This document shows, one piece after another, positions 4,040 through 13,078 of a stretch of 64,000 nt of DNA. The notes below the pieces were generated by a model that was not told the DNA's origin, ran no database searches, and saw nothing but the letters and a program-made list of their open reading frames with translations. Every line of letters starts with the position of its first letter. The stretch's first letter is position 1. A program made the position numbers and the translations under genes. The stretch lies in NCBI RefSeq assembly GCF_007751715.1, contig NZ_CP036292.1, forward strand, positions 6,641,339 to 6,705,338. Direction: 5' to 3'. Source of the DNA: Rosistilla oblonga. GTDB lineage: Bacteria > Planctomycetota > Planctomycetia > Pirellulales > Pirellulaceae.

Positions 4040-4729
4040 CTAGGACTGCAGCAGCTCGAACAACCGCCGATCGGCTAAAGAATCGATGCTCAAGAAGGCT
4101 TGATCGTAGCGATGCCCCGCAGTGTGTTCACCCGGAACGGCGACGGCACACGCCCCGGACCGAGCCGCCGAGATGCAGCCATTTTCACTATCCTCCAAGA
4201 CCAGCATATTTTCCGGCTGGATCTGAAAGCGGTCGGCCGCAGCGAGATACATCTCCGGATGCGGCTTGCCCTGCGAGACGTCGTCGCCGGTCAGCAGGAA
4301 CTGCAACCGCGGGATCAGGTCGAACGACGAAAGCATCTGCTGGGCGAAGCGGCGCTTGCTACTGGTCGCCACGGCAAATGGGATCGACTGCGTCTCTAAA
4401 TGATCCAGCAGTTCGAACAGCCCCGGCAGCGCGACCAATCCATCGGCTAACAGAGCGGCGTACAGGTCGTCGCTCTCCTGCATCAGATCGGCTGGCAGGT
4501 CGGTCAACTGGAACTCGGCGATCAGCACACCGATCGCTTCGGGAGCGGGACGGCCCATCATTTTCTGCTGGATTTGCATGTTGAATTCAAATCCACGACG
4601 GCCCAGCAGTTCGGTACCGACTTGGTAGTACAATGGTTCGGTATCAAACATCAGCCCATCCATATCCAACGCGACAGCTTGGATCGGATGCGGCCAACTG
4701 GAACCGGCAGAAGTGGATCGATTTGACAT
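4040..4729 (-). CDS. HAD-superfamily hydrolase, beta-phosphoglucomutase-like
   Basis: Cytoplasmic HAD phosphatase or phosphomutase of 229 residues. Motif I is LDMDGLMFDTEPL (nucleophile Asp and acid/base Asp), followed by a helical cap typical of the beta-PGM subfamily. Motif II is VATSSKRR, motif III is the Lys of GKPHPEMY, and motif IV is VLEDSENG. Length is normal for the family. The exact substrate cannot be read from sequence; sugar phosphates are usual. The ATG at 4729 is preferred over an upstream in-frame TTG at 4747. The gene is divergent from the DUF3754 gene, and their ATG codons overlap in one CATG. Confidence 0.85.
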   Translation of the reverse strand: MSNRSTSAGSSWPHPIQAVALDMDGLMFDTEPLYYQVGTELLGRRGFEFNMQIQQKMMGRPAPEAIGVLIAEFQLTDLPADLMQESDDLYAALLADGLVALPGLFELLDHLETQSIPFAVATSSKRRFAQQMLSSFDLIPRLQFLLTGDDVSQGKPHPEMYLAAADRFQIQPENMLVLEDSENGCISAARSGACAVAVPGEHTAGHRYDQAFLSIDSLADRRLFELLQS

Positions 4730-6029
4730 GTCTTTGGGGTCTCGCAAAGGAGTTCGTTTAGCTCAGGAATCTCTATCGGGTGAATATATTGCCGAGGATG
4801 CGCCGCATTGGAAAGCCGAACCGTTCATCCCGATCACTGCCGCGGAACTCAAAAGCGTGCTGCTGGCACATCCGCGTGCGGCGGCTCAAGCCGATCATCT
4901 GCATCGCGTTTTCGAATCGCTGACATCGATCCTGAACCACGATTACCGCAATCTACACCAGCAGCTCGAAACGCACTATTCGGTTCTCGATCCCGATCGC
5001 GATCTGAAACTGTTGACCGAACCGACCGACGACCAGTGTGACGCATCGCTGCGGCACATGCGAGGTTACTTGCACGATCTCTTGCGAGCCGCCAACTTCA
5101 CGCAACTGGATCAGCAACAAATCCGCGGGGCGATCCAAACCTCCAGCGACTGGGGCGTGCGGTTGCAGATCAATTTCGACATCTTCGAATCGATCGACGT
5201 CTATGCGCGAGGCGACATCGTCGGGATGCGGACGCGGCGGCTGTGGAAATCGTATTGGAAGATGTCCGAAATGGAGGTGCCGATCTACCAGCGGTTGGTC
5301 GCGGTTTTCAAACTCAAACCCGACGCCAAACTGGTCGGCGCCCATGCCGGTGGCCAATACCATCGCGATCGCTTGCATCTGTCGATGTTCAAGAACATCC
5401 CTCAAGCCGATGTCGACATGCTGCTGCCCGGTTCGAGCATCCGATTCAGCTGGTTGGATCGCACCAAGATCTTCGCGCCAACGTTGGGCGGGATCGGAGT
5501 CACGGTGTTTAAGATCCTCCGCGGTGCGGTGGTGATCGCGGCGACCGGATTGGCGGCGGTGATGGGAGTGGCGGTGCTGGCGATTGGCATCATCGGATAC
5601 GCCGTCCGCAGCATCGTCTCCTACTTTCACACCAAAGACAAATACCTGTTGAACATGACTCGCAGCCTCTATTACCAGAAGCTCGACAGCAACGCCGGGG
5701 TCATCTATCGCCTGCTGCAGGAAGCTCGCCAACAGGATCTGCTGGAATCGATCGTCGTCTATTTCATCCTCGCGACCAGCGACGAACCGATGTCCGAAGC
5801 GGCGATGTGCAAACGGGTCGAACTACTGTTAAAGGATCTATTGGCGATCGAGATCCGCTTCGATCCCTATTCGGCGATGAAGCGATTGCACCGACTGGGG
5901 ATCGTTCTCGATGGCGGTGGCGACACGGTCAGCGTGCTGAGCCCGGAGACCTCGGTCCGCCAGCTGGACCATTACTGGGACAACCTGATGAGCATCGATC
6001 GCGCCACGCCCAGCGAATCGGGGCAATAG
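4728..6029 (+). CDS. DUF3754 (TMEM143-like) membrane protein
   Basis: Protein of about 433 residues resembling the DUF3754/TMEM143 family, whose biochemical role is unknown. Recognisable family segments are YQRLVAVFKLK followed by LSMFKNIPQADVDMLLPGSS in the middle. A hydrophobic hairpin follows (about residues 255-300 of the protein), giving a two-pass membrane anchor. The C-terminal 120 residues look soluble and helical. The start is uncertain: the ATG at 4728 is used, and an in-frame GTG at 4713 is possible. Its first bases overlap the divergent HAD gene's start, so the two promoters must lie inside each other's coding regions or upstream sequence. The only neighbour clue is the divergent phosphatase. 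Confidence 0.75.
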   Translation: MSLGSRKGVRLAQESLSGEYIAEDAPHWKAEPFIPITAAELKSVLLAHPRAAAQADHLHRVFESLTSILNHDYRNLHQQLETHYSVLDPDRDLKLLTEPTDDQCDASLRHMRGYLHDLLRAANFTQLDQQQIRGAIQTSSDWGVRLQINFDIFESIDVYARGDIVGMRTRRLWKSYWKMSEMEVPIYQRLVAVFKLKPDAKLVGAHAGGQYHRDRLHLSMFKNIPQADVDMLLPGSSIRFSWLDRTKIFAPTLGGIGVTVFKILRGAVVIAATGLAAVMGVAVLAIGIIGYAVRSIVSYFHTKDKYLLNMTRSLYYQKLDSNAGVIYRLLQEARQQDLLESIVVYFILATSDEPMSEAAMCKRVELLLKDLLAIEIRFDPYSAMKRLHRLGIVLDGGGDTVSVLSPETSVRQLDHYWDNLMSIDRATPSESGQ

Positions 6030-6296: not shown

Positions 6297-7202
6297 ATGA
6301 TGTTGGCCCAACCCGACGAGACTTTTCGCGTGCCATCCAGTCCCAACTTAACGCATCCGAAACCATGGCAATTGGGCCGTCGTTTTGCGCTGACGACGGA
6401 GATGGTCGGCAAACGATTTATCGAAGTGCTGAAGGTCGTCGTGAACCTGTTGGCGCTTGTTTGGGCGGTGGCGTTTATCGCCGCAAGCCCGCGGTCGTGG
6501 ACGCCATTGACGCGGATGGTCTTTGCTCGCCAGTTGCTGTTCACTGCGGTCGACGGGCTGTTGGTTGCGATTCGCATCTCCGCGGCGGTCGGCGTGTTGG
6601 TGATCGTACAATCCGCGATGTGGTTGGACGCGGTGGGGGCAACAACCGACGGCATCTCGCCGGTGTTGTGGAAGGCGGTGATCCATGAGATCGCGCCACT
6701 GATCGCCAGCCTGGTTGTGGTCGGTCGCAGCGGAATCGCGATCTCGACCGAACTGGCGACGATGCTGGTCAGCGGCGAATTGGAAGTGCTTGAATCGCAG
6801 GGCGTCGATCCGATGACAACCATGATCATGCCGCGCGTGTTAAGCATGACGCTGAGTGTTTTCTGCTTGGCAATCGTGGTCGCGACGACGATGCTGGTGA
6901 TGGGTTATATGGTCGGTTGGTTGATGGGAGTGATCCACACTCCATGGTCGATGTTTCTGGAGTCGTTGCTGCGTGAATCGAATCTCCTGGACTTTGCATT
7001 TTTTGTCCCCAAAACAATTATCGCAGGTGCTTTTGCCGGCGCCATTTGCTGTGCCGATGGGCTGACCGTTCGCGGCACGATGTCCGATGTATCGCGAGTC
7101 GCCAGCCGCAGCGGGATCCATGCGATGACGGCGGTGTTTGGCATCTCTGCGATCTTGTCGATACTAATTTACAACCGCATCTTGGTCTTCCAAATCCTCT
7201 AG
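6297..7202 (+). CDS. MCE-system permease, MlaE family
   Basis: Inner-membrane permease (301 residues) of the MlaE/YrbE family, which with an ATPase and an MCE-domain protein moves lipids between membranes. Family features are the VLWKAVIHEIAPLIASLVVVGRS-like block (residues about 120-145), the ISTELATM segment with acidic residue, and five or six hydrophobic helices ending in SILIYNRILVF. Two ATGs are adjacent (6297 and 6300). It is the first gene of a tight operon: the next gene starts 4 bases after its stop, followed by the MlaD-like protein and a lipoprotein. This order (permease, ATPase, MCE protein, lipoprotein) matches known Mla-like loci. Confidence 0.88.
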   Translation: MMLAQPDETFRVPSSPNLTHPKPWQLGRRFALTTEMVGKRFIEVLKVVVNLLALVWAVAFIAASPRSWTPLTRMVFARQLLFTAVDGLLVAIRISAAVGVLVIVQSAMWLDAVGATTDGISPVLWKAVIHEIAPLIASLVVVGRSGIAISTELATMLVSGELEVLESQGVDPMTTMIMPRVLSMTLSVFCLAIVVATTMLVMGYMVGWLMGVIHTPWSMFLESLLRESNLLDFAFFVPKTIIAGAFAGAICCADGLTVRGTMSDVSRVASRSGIHAMTAVFGISAILSILIYNRILVFQIL

Positions 7203-7205
7203 CTT

Positions 7206-7943
7206 GTGTCGATGAGCAGTCTCGAAAAAAACGATCCCGCTCCGGCGGAAGCTGATCCTCGCCGCGAGATCTTGGTCTTGGAGGATCTTTCGTTTCGCGA
7301 TCTGACACGCCAATCGGTGACGCTCCGCGACGCCAATTTAAAAATTTTTGAAAACGACCTCGTCACCTTAACCTTACCGCCATCGATGGAATCGCGAGCT
7401 TTCACGTCGATGCTGTTAGGCCTGCGGATGCCACAACAGGGCCGCGTATTGTTTGATGGAAACGAATGGACCGGCGAAGATTATGCGTTACACGATCGAA
7501 TGCGAAGCCAAATCGGACGTGTCTTCGACGGAAAGGCGTGGGTTGAGAACATGAACATCTATGAAAACGTCGTCTTGCCGCACCAGCACCACAACCACCG
7601 AACGGTCAAAGAACTCGATCGCGAGATCCAATATTGGTCGCGACGCTTTGAGATCGAATCGATGAAGGACCAACGTCCCGCCTTTGTCGGCAAGACGTTC
7701 CTACGAATCTGCGAATGGATCCGCGCACTGATCGGATCGCCGCGTCTGTTGTTGTTGGAACATCCGATGCGTTCGGTTCCCAGGGCGAGGTTCCCAGCTC
7801 TGTTGCAAGCTGTCGTATCGGCGACCGAAGCTGGCGCCGCTGCGCTGTGGATCGCGCCGAGCAGCGATCTGCAACGCGACAAATTCCCAACATCGGCACG
7901 CCACTATCAAATCCACGATTTCCATCTGACCCCGGTAGGATAA
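7206..7943 (+). CDS. Degenerate ABC ATPase-like subunit of the MCE operon
   Basis: Occupies the MlaF (ATP-binding subunit) position and keeps the ABC fold outline: an N-terminal strand region, a GLRMPQQGRVLFDGNEW segment as in genuine ATPases, a Q-loop-like area, and a Walker-B-like LLLLEHP. The catalytic parts are missing. The P-loop GxxGxGKS/T is replaced by LPPSMESRAFTS with no Lys, the LSGGQ signature is replaced by FVGKTFLRICEW, and the Walker B Asp-Glu is Glu-His. The frame is intact over 245 residues with normal spacing, so this is not a decaying pseudogene by appearance. It may be a non-hydrolysing structural subunit. Start is GTG 7206; ATG 7212 is an alternative. Confidence 0.75.
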   Translation: MSMSSLEKNDPAPAEADPRREILVLEDLSFRDLTRQSVTLRDANLKIFENDLVTLTLPPSMESRAFTSMLLGLRMPQQGRVLFDGNEWTGEDYALHDRMRSQIGRVFDGKAWVENMNIYENVVLPHQHHNHRTVKELDREIQYWSRRFEIESMKDQRPAFVGKTFLRICEWIRALIGSPRLLLLEHPMRSVPRARFPALLQAVVSATEAGAAALWIAPSSDLQRDKFPTSARHYQIHDFHLTPVG

Positions 7944-7953
7944 GGACAACACC

Positions 7954-9063
7954 ATGAACGATCCCTATCGGTTGCGCTACACGAACCAAGTGGTTGGCAC
8001 CTTTCTATTGGTGATCCTGCTATTTTCGTTAGTCGTGTCGTTTTTGATGATTCGAACCAAAGACTACTTCGCAGAGAAAGATCACTTCTGGATCGACGTG
8101 CCACAACACGCGGTCGATGGATTGCAAAAGGGATCCGAAGTGGTGATCTTGGGCGAACGCGCCGGCGAGGTCGAAGGCATCCGGTACATCGACCAGACCA
8201 GCAACGTGCGAGTTAGCCTGGCGATTCGCCGCGAGTACAGCAAAAGGGTGTTCACATCGTCGACCGTCGCACTCGAACGACGCTACGGTGGTGTCGGTGC
8301 GCCGCTATTGGTAATCCGCCGCGGCATGCCAGCCGATGGTGTGCTGAAACAGTTGCCGCCGGACAGCGAGATCGTCAACTTCGAAGGCGAAGAAGATCGT
8401 ATGGATCAATTGACAAGAGAAGTCCAATCGGTGAGCGATTCGATCAAACAGATTGAATTAAAAATGGTTCCGACGATGGACACGATCGGCAAAGCGGCGA
8501 AGACCATCGATACGGGAACCGAGGAGGACGCGCGGCCGGCGTTCCGTAGCATAGGTGAAGCGTCAGCGGCCTTCCAAAAGACCAACGAAAAATTGCGTCC
8601 CGAAGCGTCGCAAACAATGCTGGAAATTCGGCAAGCGACACAAAATTTGGATCAACGGATCACGCAACTCACCGAGAAGATCGAACTGCTGGTCGAGGCC
8701 GACATGCGGGATACGCTGCGAGGCGTCCGCGACACCAGCGACGATGTAAGCGATGCCGCCGGAAGCGTAAAAACGACGGCCACCGACGTCAACGCTGACG
8801 TCGCAAATACGCTGGTCGAAATCCGCGAAGCGGCTGACGAAATGACCCGCTTGGCCAACGAAGCTCGCGATGTGGTCCGCGTTGTTCGCAAGGAGAGCGA
8901 AGAACTGCCCGGGACAGTCGAACAGTTTAATGCGACGGTCGGCAATGCGGATGACATGGTGGGCGAGATTCGCAGCCATTGGCTGCTCCGCCGCTACACC
9001 GATCAATCGCCAACCACTCGGCAGCTCTCGCCGTCGGGAATTCGAGCGGGAGGTGCACCGTGA
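7954..9063 (+). CDS. MlaD-family MCE-domain protein
   Basis: Periplasmic, membrane-anchored lipid-binding component of an Mla-like system (369 residues). A single N-terminal helix (about 16-32, VGTFLLVILLFSLVVSFLMI) is followed by the MCE domain (about 45-135), with LQKGSEVVILGERAGEVEGI matching the family pattern in which a hydrophobic tunnel is built from MCE rings. The remaining 220 residues are predominantly helical with heptad-like repeats, as in longer MCE proteins that build needle-like extensions. It starts 10 bases after the ATPase-like gene. Its TGA overlaps the GTG of the following lipoprotein gene, indicating translational coupling. Confidence 0.87.
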   Translation: MNDPYRLRYTNQVVGTFLLVILLFSLVVSFLMIRTKDYFAEKDHFWIDVPQHAVDGLQKGSEVVILGERAGEVEGIRYIDQTSNVRVSLAIRREYSKRVFTSSTVALERRYGGVGAPLLVIRRGMPADGVLKQLPPDSEIVNFEGEEDRMDQLTREVQSVSDSIKQIELKMVPTMDTIGKAAKTIDTGTEEDARPAFRSIGEASAAFQKTNEKLRPEASQTMLEIRQATQNLDQRITQLTEKIELLVEADMRDTLRGVRDTSDDVSDAAGSVKTTATDVNADVANTLVEIREAADEMTRLANEARDVVRVVRKESEELPGTVEQFNATVGNADDMVGEIRSHWLLRRYTDQSPTTRQLSPSGIRAGGAP

Positions 9064-10343
9064 TTGCAGCGCAACCGCAAACATCCAGACGGCCTAACGC
9101 CGCCGTCGTCGGAATCCTGATCTGTGGACTCGGTTTCCTGATCGGATGCCGCAGTGGCGGTGCGCCGCAGCGGAAGATCGATCCTCAATTGAAGAACCAT
9201 GCCGAAGCGGCGACCGAAGCTTTTGCCGAGGGGCAGTTGGAAGATGCGGTCAAACAGTACCGCAAAGTGATCCGCCGCGCCTGGGCGATGGACGATCCGC
9301 TAGAATCGGGCAACAACGCGTACAACATGGCCGCGGCGATGACCAGCATGTCGCGTGTGGCGGAAGCTCGCGATTGGTTGGTCGATGCCCGCGTGGAACT
9401 GTACCGAGCGGGCAAACCCGATGGCAACACCTGGCTGTTGGAGGCCAAGCTCGCGCAAAACCAATGCCGGTTCGACGAAGCCGCTCGCTTGATCCAACGC
9501 GCCTCCTGTTCCGAACCTCCCTGCGAAGGCGATTCGGGCGATTGCTTGTGTGGACCACACGATCCGTGCGAAGGAAGCTGTGCTGCAAAAATCCCTTGCG
9601 TCGGCGAGAAGCTGGAACAGCGGAAACAACTGGCCGATTGCCAGCAGACGTTTCAAATCCAGATCCACCTAGCCCAAGCTCGCTGGTACGCCGAACAATA
9701 CGACCTGCCCAATGCGCGATGCCATTATCAGACCGCCTGCGAACTGGCTGCGGAGATCTGCGACTTTGAACTGCAGGCGGAACTGCAAAGCGTTGCGGCG
9801 ATGATCCATCTGGCCTGCGGGCAATTCTTGCAAGCGGGTTGGCATCTCGATCTCGAGGCGAAAAACCTACGACTGGCTGGCAATTATCGCGAGATCCCGC
9901 GAGCCTTGGAATTGGCATCGGCCGCTTATGCGCAAGCCGCTCGGCCAGCGTTGGCCGCCGATCGATTGTGCCGTGTCGCTCGGATCTGGTACGGCCGTGG
10001 AAACATCAACCGATCGTGGAAGTATGTAAAAGACGCAATCCCGATGGCGGAGATGTCCGGCTCGGCAAGCACCCAGATCCGACTGGCTCTGCTCGTACAT
10101 GAATTGCGGCAGGAGATCGATGACAAATCAGACAACGACGCTGCACCCCGCAGCGATTTGGATCCCACGCCCGAACTGGCAGCACACGATTCGTCACAGG
10201 CAACCGATTCCGCCGACGCGGCGGTCCACCCCGCCGATCCAATTCAGGAAGCGGAATTGCTGATGCTGGAAGGTCCCAAAAAACAAGCCTCCGCGGTGAT
10301 CGAGCGGCTGGCCAACCAACGCCTACTTCACAGCGACATCTAG
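9060..10343 (+). CDS. Lipoprotein with tetratricopeptide-like repeats, MCE operon
   Basis: Predicted lipoprotein of 427 residues. A hydrophobic signal (VVGILICGLGFLIGC) ends in a lipobox LIGC. The rest is helical with TPR-like pairs, for example EAFAEGQLEDAVKQYRKVIR and later alanine-rich repeats, plus a Cys-rich insert (about residues 145-185, several CxxC-like pairs) that could bind metal or form disulfides. The GTG at 9060 is chosen because it overlaps the upstream TGA and has GGGAGGTG just before it. Its place as last gene of the MCE operon suggests a periplasmic or outer-membrane accessory protein, by analogy with MlaC/VacJ partners, though it is not homologous to them by eye. Confidence 0.8.
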   Translation: MIAAQPQTSRRPNAAVVGILICGLGFLIGCRSGGAPQRKIDPQLKNHAEAATEAFAEGQLEDAVKQYRKVIRRAWAMDDPLESGNNAYNMAAAMTSMSRVAEARDWLVDARVELYRAGKPDGNTWLLEAKLAQNQCRFDEAARLIQRASCSEPPCEGDSGDCLCGPHDPCEGSCAAKIPCVGEKLEQRKQLADCQQTFQIQIHLAQARWYAEQYDLPNARCHYQTACELAAEICDFELQAELQSVAAMIHLACGQFLQAGWHLDLEAKNLRLAGNYREIPRALELASAAYAQAARPALAADRLCRVARIWYGRGNINRSWKYVKDAIPMAEMSGSASTQIRLALLVHELRQEIDDKSDNDAAPRSDLDPTPELAAHDSSQATDSADAAVHPADPIQEAELLMLEGPKKQASAVIERLANQRLLHSDI

Positions 10344-11636: not shown

Positions 11637-13078
11637 GAGTAATTGTCAATTGTTGTGTTTTGAGAAATTGAATTAGGCCGCGATCTCATCCTGCATGATT
11701 CCGTCTATGAAGGAACGCACTTCGATGACGGGAGTGATCTTCTCGTGGCAGTTCAGGCGTCTCCATTTCTTGGATGCTGATTGGGCGAGCTTGAACATCA
11801 TCGCCAAGCTTGCTCGCCGGGTTCCACTTCCTTTGGTCTTTCGATGGCGAAGCCGGATCGTCGCGAACGTGGACTCGATCGGGTTGGTCGTTCGGAGGTG
11901 ACTCCAGTGCTCCGCCGGGAAGTCGTAGAATGCCAGCAGCACGTCACGGTCCTTCTTTAAGCACGCGCATGCAGGAGCGTATTTCGCACGGTATTTTTCA
12001 AGGAAGTGATCGAACGCTTTGTTCGCGTCGTCCTCGTTTCCGCTTGCCAGATTTCGTGCAGGTCACCCTTCGTTTTGGGCTGAACGCTTCTGGGCATCTC
12101 GTTCAAAACGTTGGCCGTCTTATGGACCCAGCAGCGCTGTTCGCGGGTCTCGGGAAACACTTTCCGAATCGCCGCCCAGAAGCCTAACGCACCGTCACCG
12201 ATGGCGATCTTCGGAGCCATCTTCAGGCCTCGTTGCTTGAGATCGATGAGCAGTTCACTCCAGCTTTGTTCGCTTTCACGGTAGCCATCGAGGACGGCGA
12301 TCAGTTCCTTTTTCCCATCGGGCGTTGCTCCCATTAGCACCAGCAAGCACTGCTTTTTGTTGGCATCGTCTTCCAGGCGGACCTTCGCGTGAATGCCATC
12401 AGCCCAGACGTAAACGTATTGCTTGTCGGATAAATCACGCTTGCTCCAATCGTCGTACTCGCTACACCACTGTTCCTTTAGCCGACAGACGACGTTGGGA
12501 CCCAGCCCTGCGGCACGCGCACCCACAAGCGACTGAAGGGCTTCCGCGAAATCACCGGTCGAGATCCCTTTGAGGTACAGCCAAGGAATCAATTCTTCGA
12601 TGGCCTTGGTCTTTCGCAGGTAGCTTGGCAACACGCTGGGCGAAAACGTGCCCCGTCGGTTGCGATCGGGGGCACTGTCACGAACTCGCCCCTGGGTGAT
12701 GGGAATGGAACCCGCACCGGTGAGGATGTCCCGCTCCGGCAGGCTGCCGTTCTTGACGACGAGTCGTCTGCGTCGCTCGTCGGTTCGACTGGAATGCATG
12801 CCGATGAACGCTTCGACTTCAGCGTCGATCGCAGATTGCAGCATTCGCCTGGCTCCTTCGCGGACAATTTCGTCGAGTGGACTTCGCTGGTCGAACTGAG
12901 CCCGAAACGAAACCACTTAGGGATCGATCTGGTTGTCCACTGGCCCGTCGGTTCGATCTGTTTTAGTCTGATTCATGGCGTATTCCTTTGCCCACATCGG
13001 GCCGTTGGAGGGTGATAGTTCCAACAGGATGCGCCACCTTTTTCATTCACTCAAGAACACAACTTTCGACAATACCTC
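11637..13078 (-). mobile_element. IS256-family insertion sequence (1442 bp)
   Basis: Imperfect terminal inverted repeats: the left end starts GAGTAATTGTCAATTGTTGT and the right end (reverse complement) starts GAGGTATTGTCGAAAGTTGT. Both continue with similar sequence for about 25-40 bp. The element is flanked by the 9-bp target duplication TACGGCCCA (11628-11636 and 13079-13087), the size usual for IS256-type elements. It encodes one mutator-type transposase on the minus strand, which appears inactivated. Confidence 0.87.
11673..12976 (-). pseudogene. IS256-family transposase, nonsense and frameshift
   Basis: Mutator-type DDE transposase. Recognisable parts include an N-terminal AIDAEVEAFIG block, VYVWADGIHAKVRLEDDANK (first catalytic Asp), KIAIGDGALGFWAAIRKVFP (second Asp), QRCWVHKTANVLN, and near the C-terminus HWSHLRTTNPIESTFATIRL (catalytic Glu). 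From the ATG at 12976 the reading is MNQTKTDRTDGPVDNQIDP and then a TAA (12917-12919) before VVSFRAQ. Translation could restart at GTG 12916. A frameshift near 12045 separates the main part from the C-terminal part (...EDDANKAFDHFLEKYR... continues in another frame). The glutamate-bearing end is therefore lost from the main product. No second copy is in the window to supply transposase. Confidence 0.85.

Follow-up and report, generated by a model that had tools for sequence, protein, structure and literature searches.

Among the described MCE systems, Mla (MlaFEDB, with MlaEFD as its core) brings together in a single operon an MlaE permease, an ABC-fold NBD and the MCE-domain protein MlaD. ABC transporters are defined by ATP use: each ATP site combines the Walker motifs of one subunit with its partner's signature, and known NBDs require the Walker A lysine, the signature, the H-loop histidine and the Q-loop glutamine. 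In TAP, TM287/288, CFTR and other transporters with a single degenerate site, an NBD that has lost catalytic motifs still plays a structural role, and one complete site remains. In the PqiABC system, PqiC is an outer-membrane lipoprotein. The inner-membrane proteins of the Pqi and Let systems are described as having no ATPase domain (PMC12436622), and the mycobacterial Mce1 and Mce4 systems, whose MlaE-like permease operons carry no working ATPase of their own, are reported to share one ATPase, MceG (PMC9947336).

The window analysed here is a stretch of 64,000 nucleotides from the planctomycete Rosistilla oblonga (NZ_CP036292.1, positions 6,641,339 to 6,705,338). It carries four genes arranged head to tail on the + strand, with intergenic gaps of 3, 10 and -4 bp in gene order; they are therefore read as a single unit, in which the mlaF-like frame starts 3 bp past the end of mlaE (7202) and ends 10 bp ahead of the start of mlaD (7954):

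6297..7202, + strand, mlaE-like permease, 301 aa; Pfam MlaE at 130.4 bits, above the cut-off
7206..7943, + strand, disarmed mlaF-like ABC subunit, 245 aa, GTG start
7954..9063, + strand, mlaD-like MCE-domain protein, 369 aa; Pfam MlaD at 29.2 bits, cut-off 25.1
9060..10343, + strand, predicted lipoprotein of a TPR-like family, 427 aa, lipobox LIGC; GTG start overlapping the mlaD stop

The mlaD-like protein shows a hydrophobic N-terminal stretch (judged by eye), one MCE domain and a long C-terminal part with weak Pfam matches, below cut-off, to coiled-coil families. Upstream of the operon, at window positions 4713-6029 (+), lies a DUF3754 protein (Pfam); a protein similar by eye occupies the same position in one congener, and in genome G012 this position holds what we take to be an ATP synthase beta-like protein. 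Two consecutive frames at 11673-12916 (-) presumably represent a broken IS256-type transposase.

This locus resembles Mla in joining an MlaE permease, an ABC-fold NBD and an MCE-domain MlaD in one operon, and differs from it in that the NBD has neither any catalytic motif nor the canonical MlaF C-terminal columns, and in the added gene for a TPR-like lipoprotein. PqiABC and LetAB are likewise MCE systems, with an inner-membrane protein for which no ATPase domain is described (PMC12436622), but here an MlaE and a dead NBD stand in place of PqiA or LetA, there is one MCE-domain match and not several, and the lipoprotein family matches only TPR models in Pfam (E<=0.01). Mce1 and Mce4 are comparable in their permease operons without a working ATPase; unlike in them, the disarmed NBD gene stays in the operon and no second close MlaF was found in the genome. 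Contrary to the ABC transporters with one degenerate site, the only NBD of this operon has no complete site at all. A search of open-licence PubMed Central, covering the top matches for larger result sets, found no publication on an MCE operon in which the ABC subunit is disarmed, and the initial judgement that this MCE architecture is unusual holds.

The sequence-only reading had proposed an ATPase subunit without its motifs in an otherwise intact MCE operon. Alignment to the canonical MlaF encoded in the same genome (C1:4184123-4185031; L001, L145), the reference for the motif comparison, confirms this at every site:

7374..7397, + strand, Walker A site: GESGCGKT replaced by LPPSMESR
7527..7529, + strand, Q-loop glutamine position: Gln replaced by Asp, the preceding IGRVF being retained across the family
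7686..7700, + strand, ABC signature site: LSGGM replaced by VGKTF
7749..7766, + strand, Walker B and catalytic glutamate site: VLYDEP replaced by LLLEHP
7857..7859, + strand, H-loop histidine position: His replaced by Pro

Relative to the same reference, the D-loop is absent as well. The protein lies narrowly above the Pfam ABC_tran cut-off (26.3 bits vs 25), and a profile made from 32 members of the disarmed family aligns across nearly the whole NBD of solved ATPases, FtsE and LolD among them, as in the PDB match to FtsE 8tzk (E 2.7e-22, profile positions 16-235 of 244). At the level of sequence, the relationship to the NBD family is clear across the whole domain. Since 29 of these 32 members match ABC_tran at E<=0.01, profile-based annotation would likely call them ATP-binding proteins, and the case is easily overlooked. 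A single-sequence AlphaFold model of the window protein alone reached a mean pLDDT of 38.6, too poor for use.

The distribution of this subfamily was followed within the phylum of the window, to which genome sampling was restricted. Among 60 relatives, the window's genome included, clear matches above background were obtained in two congeners (95% and 77% identity), in one genome of the same family (37%) and in one of another family (35%), the MlaE-like permease having orthologues at 96%, 84%, 53% and 44%. All four homologues are disarmed, which answers in the affirmative whether the loss extends across the clade. Within the window's family, a member scoring at least 111 bits is present in 40 of 241 genomes (again counting the window's), and the match ranked below these, at 80.5 bits, is canonical (L164). 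In an order sample that overlaps this family, 24 of 396 genomes have a match at E<=1e-35, including two genomes of family f2. A phylum sample searched with MlaE, in which 285 of 392 genomes matched and 30 fetched loci were read, added three null operons in families f77, f84 and f35 (L066-L068), those with a lower-scoring MlaE possibly being missed; the subfamily is present in four families besides the window's. The phylum search with MlaE, the family and order searches and the partial-ATPase profile search scored 5 to 11 candidates per genome. Two weak matches, L003 at 23% identity and L004 over 45 residues, came from a scan of the genome contigs with the window protein. An explanation by a single odd genome is rejected, as members occur in other genomes and families, and the same loss in many independently sequenced genomes excludes a misread sequence in the window's genome.

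Forty-two full-length members, the null rows hereafter, were read: 38 of the 40 family loci, G037 and L066-L068. The other two family loci are contig-edge fragments (L157, L163) in which the readable signature, Walker B and H-loop are lost; these fragments and L076 stand outside the 42 rows, and G688 of the order sample was scored only. For comparison, 39 canonical rows were chosen for having the motifs, leaving aside L043 (cut by a contig end) and L084, and the motif alignment set does not include L025, L028, L034 and L146-L156, ABC matches not taken as members of MCE operons. A complete Walker A, signature, Walker B aspartate with catalytic glutamate, or H-loop histidine was found in none of the 42 null rows, and the H-loop histidine and Q-loop glutamine are missing from every one. 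The Walker A lysine column holds a lysine in one row (L119, genome G529), which nonetheless lacks GxxxxGK[ST]. The column of the Walker A threonine is Arg in 81% of null rows, those outside the window's family being mostly without it. Two outlying members besides L119, namely L162 (G631) and the fragment L163 (G632), have lost even the Glu found at the Walker B position in other members.

Catalysis by the mlaF-like subunit is, from these replacements, strongly predicted to be lost. The Glu that 98% of null rows carry in the column of the Walker B Asp might be taken to serve a non-canonical nucleotide site, but with the Walker A lysine missing in 41 of 42 rows and the signature, H-loop histidine and Q-loop glutamine missing in all 42, such a site appears very improbable.

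Substitution rates were then considered for the null operon and for intact genes. Within the genus, dN/dS amounts to 0.12-0.14 for the dead subunit, 0.07-0.11 for its mlaE and 0.10-0.19 for its mlaD, with 0.04-0.10 for intact mlaF and 0.02-0.04 for intact mlaE; in seven of ten other null pairs, those with unsaturated dS, the dead subunit gives 0.06-0.29. Judged by these ratios, purifying selection acts on the dead-subunit gene. In all computable pairs except L118/L124 (0.147 vs 0.151) this gene evolves faster than the mlaE beside it, identities for dead subunit and mlaE being 51% vs 82% in L108/L109 and 50% vs 80% in L108/L110. This faster pace and the patchy presence described above (40 of 241 and, in the overlapping sample, 24 of 396 genomes) could be the marks of a decaying pseudogene in an operon under loss; decay is nevertheless extremely unlikely, because none of the 40 family matches has an internal stop, dN/dS stays well below 1 and the replacements are shared across families. 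Nor does the locus correspond to the alternative raised at the outset, a relaxed copy among canonical homologues: here the homologues are themselves disarmed, and dN/dS is low.

The history of the loss was approached through MlaE trees, which use no ATPase sequence. Both were built on chosen rows (66 and 40) and rooted at the midpoint, and the direction of change assumes that a working ATPase is ancestral. In the 66-row tree, null operons occupy one branch of 30 rows (support 99/97), with L076 apart, and operons with intact motifs lie on the opposite side together with five MlaE genes without a nearby ATPase. The 40-row tree, from which L082, L084, L086, L088 and L091 are absent, agrees (null, 19 rows, 99/95; intact, 10 rows, 100/100). 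Both trees carry warnings on long end branches (L066, L067, L068, L119 and others), on long inner branches meeting between the canonical group and the rest, and on the odd composition of L078 and L079.

Ten MCE ATPases of the same phylum (L069-L075, L077-L079) are placed around the null clade without forming one clade. They are like the null members in this nearness on the MlaE tree, in having lost signature and H-loop histidine (10/10) and, for the L138 neighbourhood, in the lipoprotein; they differ in keeping the Walker A lysine and Walker B Asp (10/10), with the catalytic glutamate in 7/10 and a whole GxxxxGK[ST] in 7/10. Four further, more divergent ATPases without signature and H-loop (L082, L086, L088, L091) also keep the Walker A lysine. 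Such a placement is expected if signature and H-loop were lost first, and disarming apparently proceeded stepwise, the Walker A and B motifs going later. L076, within the partial group, lacks Walker A as well; one common loss for it and the null rows is not rejected (AU p 0.119), and a separate complete loss in L076 is only suggested. A profile of the 11 ATPases L069-L079 finds 12 places in 11 of 392 phylum genomes at 221 bits or more (next 174), 11 of the 12 being rows from which it was built, and the partial group looks small in this sample. Ten other MlaE genes (L080, L081, L083, L085, L087, L089, L090, L092, L093, L094) have a STAS-like frame, recognised by eye, just upstream, with no ABC ATPase detected within 1.5 kb on either side; the five of them placed in the 66-row tree form one branch.

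The window's genome also holds one adjacent mlaE-mlaF-mlaD set with intact MlaF motifs. The search for an orphan MlaF that the sequence-only reading had proposed was run on this genome and found no second close MlaF, the intact protein itself scoring 663 bits and the next one 134. A third MlaE, a 524-aa fusion behind an MlaF-like NBD (L222:5224-6795 (-), G000:C1 ~2174723-2176294), appears by eye to have intact Walker A, LSGGQ, Walker B and H-loop; no MCE gene was seen next to it, and a PF02470 search of the whole genome yields just two MlaD places. Of the 45 null genomes searched, 37 have a comparable third MlaE place, which in 35 cases sits in an open frame of at least 448 aa; the one of the window's genome was read. 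A second MlaE of canonical score (at least 217 bits) is present in 42 of the 45, as scored on MlaE, the ATPase beside each not always being read; the three genomes without it (G593, G624, G582) are 66-85% complete. Because of this co-occurrence, the dead system looks like an addition to an ordinary MCE system and not a replacement of it. In G012 and G485, which belong to one genus, canonical and null MlaE lie ~14 kb apart (G012:C1 5551050/5565480; G485:C1 266261/280720).

These other sets bear on whether this MlaE is powered from elsewhere, with either the second set's intact MlaF or some different ABC ATPase taking the dead subunit's place part-time in the manner of MceG with Mce1 and Mce4. 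Donors would be at hand, given the canonical-scoring MlaE in 42 of 45 null genomes, its proximity in G012 and G485, and, in the window's genome, the intact MlaF together with 48 further ABC matches at E<=1e-10. The MlaF-MlaE fusion would be a candidate as well. As each site needs the motifs of two subunits, however, no ATP site can come from two dead subunits, nor from a dead one and an intact MlaF, so that the complex would either be ATP-free or have exchanged its dead subunit for a functional one. A mixed dimer would thus gain nothing from a partner that supplies neither Walker motifs nor signature, whereas full replacement would leave the dead subunit jobless, yet it is conserved; moreover, the protein nearest to the intact MlaF is distant, at the 134 bits given above. 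We regard substitution as unlikely. An extra energising gene beside the operon was rejected as well: in a blastp comparison between ORFs of at least 90 aa, in which very divergent genes would be missed, gene families other than frames overlapping mlaE, mlaF and mlaD and the lipoprotein each occur in at most 4 of the 21 loci (14 of them null).

Retained columns were then explored for what the dead subunit still does. Columns at least 90% conserved in the 39 canonical rows were scored in the null rows on one MAFFT alignment, giving a mean retention of 0.06 for the eight Walker A columns, 0.01 for the five signature columns, 0.97 for the G-V-F trio of columns immediately preceding the Q position and 0.19 for the 11 columns that follow it. 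In ABC transporters the region around the Q-loop contacts the permease, and the docking side of the dead subunit is, on this column count, conserved in some places and altered in others. All null rows retain Asn117 and Arg170 (canonical numbering); in these rows two Trp columns and one Leu foreign to canonical MlaF, plus a His-His pair, are also fixed. On the permease, the region between TM2 and TM3, described as the coupling helix in E. coli (PMC7790496), is well conserved in null rows with a consensus of its own, in an alignment read by eye. The C-terminal columns conserved in the 39 canonical rows are absent from the 42 null rows; by analogy they would correspond to the C-terminal 'handshake' that E. 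coli MlaF is reported to require for function and assembly (PMC7367683).

Catalytic columns lost while the Trp, Leu and His-His positions became fixed, along with a conserved coupling-helix region in MlaE, would also suit a regulatory decoy, that is, a dead subunit that competes with an active NBD for MlaE and so turns transport off, or that senses a signal other than ATP. The blastp comparison of 21 neighbourhoods shows no rival NBD accompanying the operon, although a canonical NBD encoded elsewhere could compete, and we consider a decoy improbable.

The fourth gene further distinguishes the null operons. Of 14 null neighbourhoods, 12 have a gene for a homologous protein after mlaD, the lipobox being recognised by pattern or by eye; the two without it are L132, from the outlying G529, and L144, whose contig ends inside mlaD. 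Seven of the 12 had supplied sequences to the broader profile, but a family-only profile, built without them, finds L125, L126, L128, L129 and L133 and, in addition, L134-L136 from three other families (E 1.6e-24 to 6.7e-10). In the neighbourhoods of partial or L076 type (L137-L143), the broader profile detects L138 (the L070 locus, 8.3e-10) and L141 (the L076 locus, 3.2e-5), is not significant for L142 (0.13) and has no match in L137, L139, L140 and L143; the lipoprotein profile likewise has none in ~10 kb around the canonical sets of the window's genome and G012. TPR models, the only Pfam matches at E<=0.01, match at most 7 of the 12 members, and the window's own lipoprotein has no TPR match at that threshold. 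On this profile evidence, the TPR-like lipoprotein gene is part of the disarmed operon. The outer-membrane beta-barrel of long MlaD proteins is reported as absent in the PVC group (PMC10665443), and in a planctomycete host the predicted lipoprotein could provide an outer-membrane contact.

Altogether, we favour, with a probability of about 0.57, an ATP-independent lipid conduit derived from Mla, in which the dead NBD would act as a structural scaffold or gate. A dimer of the dead subunit would hold MlaE in a single fixed ATP-free state, open toward the MCE ring, and phospholipid would pass from MlaE through the MlaD ring with its long C-terminal part to the lipoprotein at the outer membrane. 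Flow would follow the phospholipid's own gradient without ATP, from inner to outer membrane as the likelier direction, ATP-driven transport being left to the separate canonical MCE system. At the former Mg-ATP site, a salt bridge might link the Arg of the Walker A Thr column to the Glu of the Walker B Asp column. Of the three options that the sequence-only reading had offered, lipid movement not driven by this subunit fits best, passive transport itself being what we infer beyond it; its option of a regulatory subunit is compatible with a scaffold or gate.

Published biochemistry speaks to this conduit from two sides. In vitro, lipid transfer from E. coli MlaD to MlaC is reported to be independent of ATP and prevented by ATP hydrolysis (PMC10212509), so that a passive outward conduit could plausibly arise by losing hydrolysis; that review also regards retrograde transport by the known Mla system as strongly supported by biochemistry (PMC10212509). 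An E. coli Walker A mutant of MlaF is described as present in the complex, inactive and unable to complement (PMC5016091), and Walker B mutants of MceG as destabilising Mce1 and Mce4 (PMC9947336); killing the ATPase of a known system thus does not by itself yield a working channel. The partly kept docking side, the evolution faster than mlaE, the missing handshake columns and the tree warnings also count against the conduit. In its fullest form, it would turn an Mla pump into an ATP-free lipid bridge by stepwise disarming (signature and H-loop, then Walker A and B), with the NBD as a clamp on MlaE, an Arg-Glu pair in place of Mg-ATP and the TPR-like lipoprotein as outer-membrane dock; to this whole sequence we give slightly less than even odds.

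As a conserved family in which the operon's only NBD is motif-less yet under selection, these proteins separate the structural role of an NBD from its role as motor. The partial ATPases, which lack signature and H-loop but retain the Walker A lysine and the Walker B Asp, are a naturally occurring series in which the contribution of each motif could be tested. The finding also bears on the outer-membrane question of whether outward phospholipid movement by MCE systems can proceed ATP-free.
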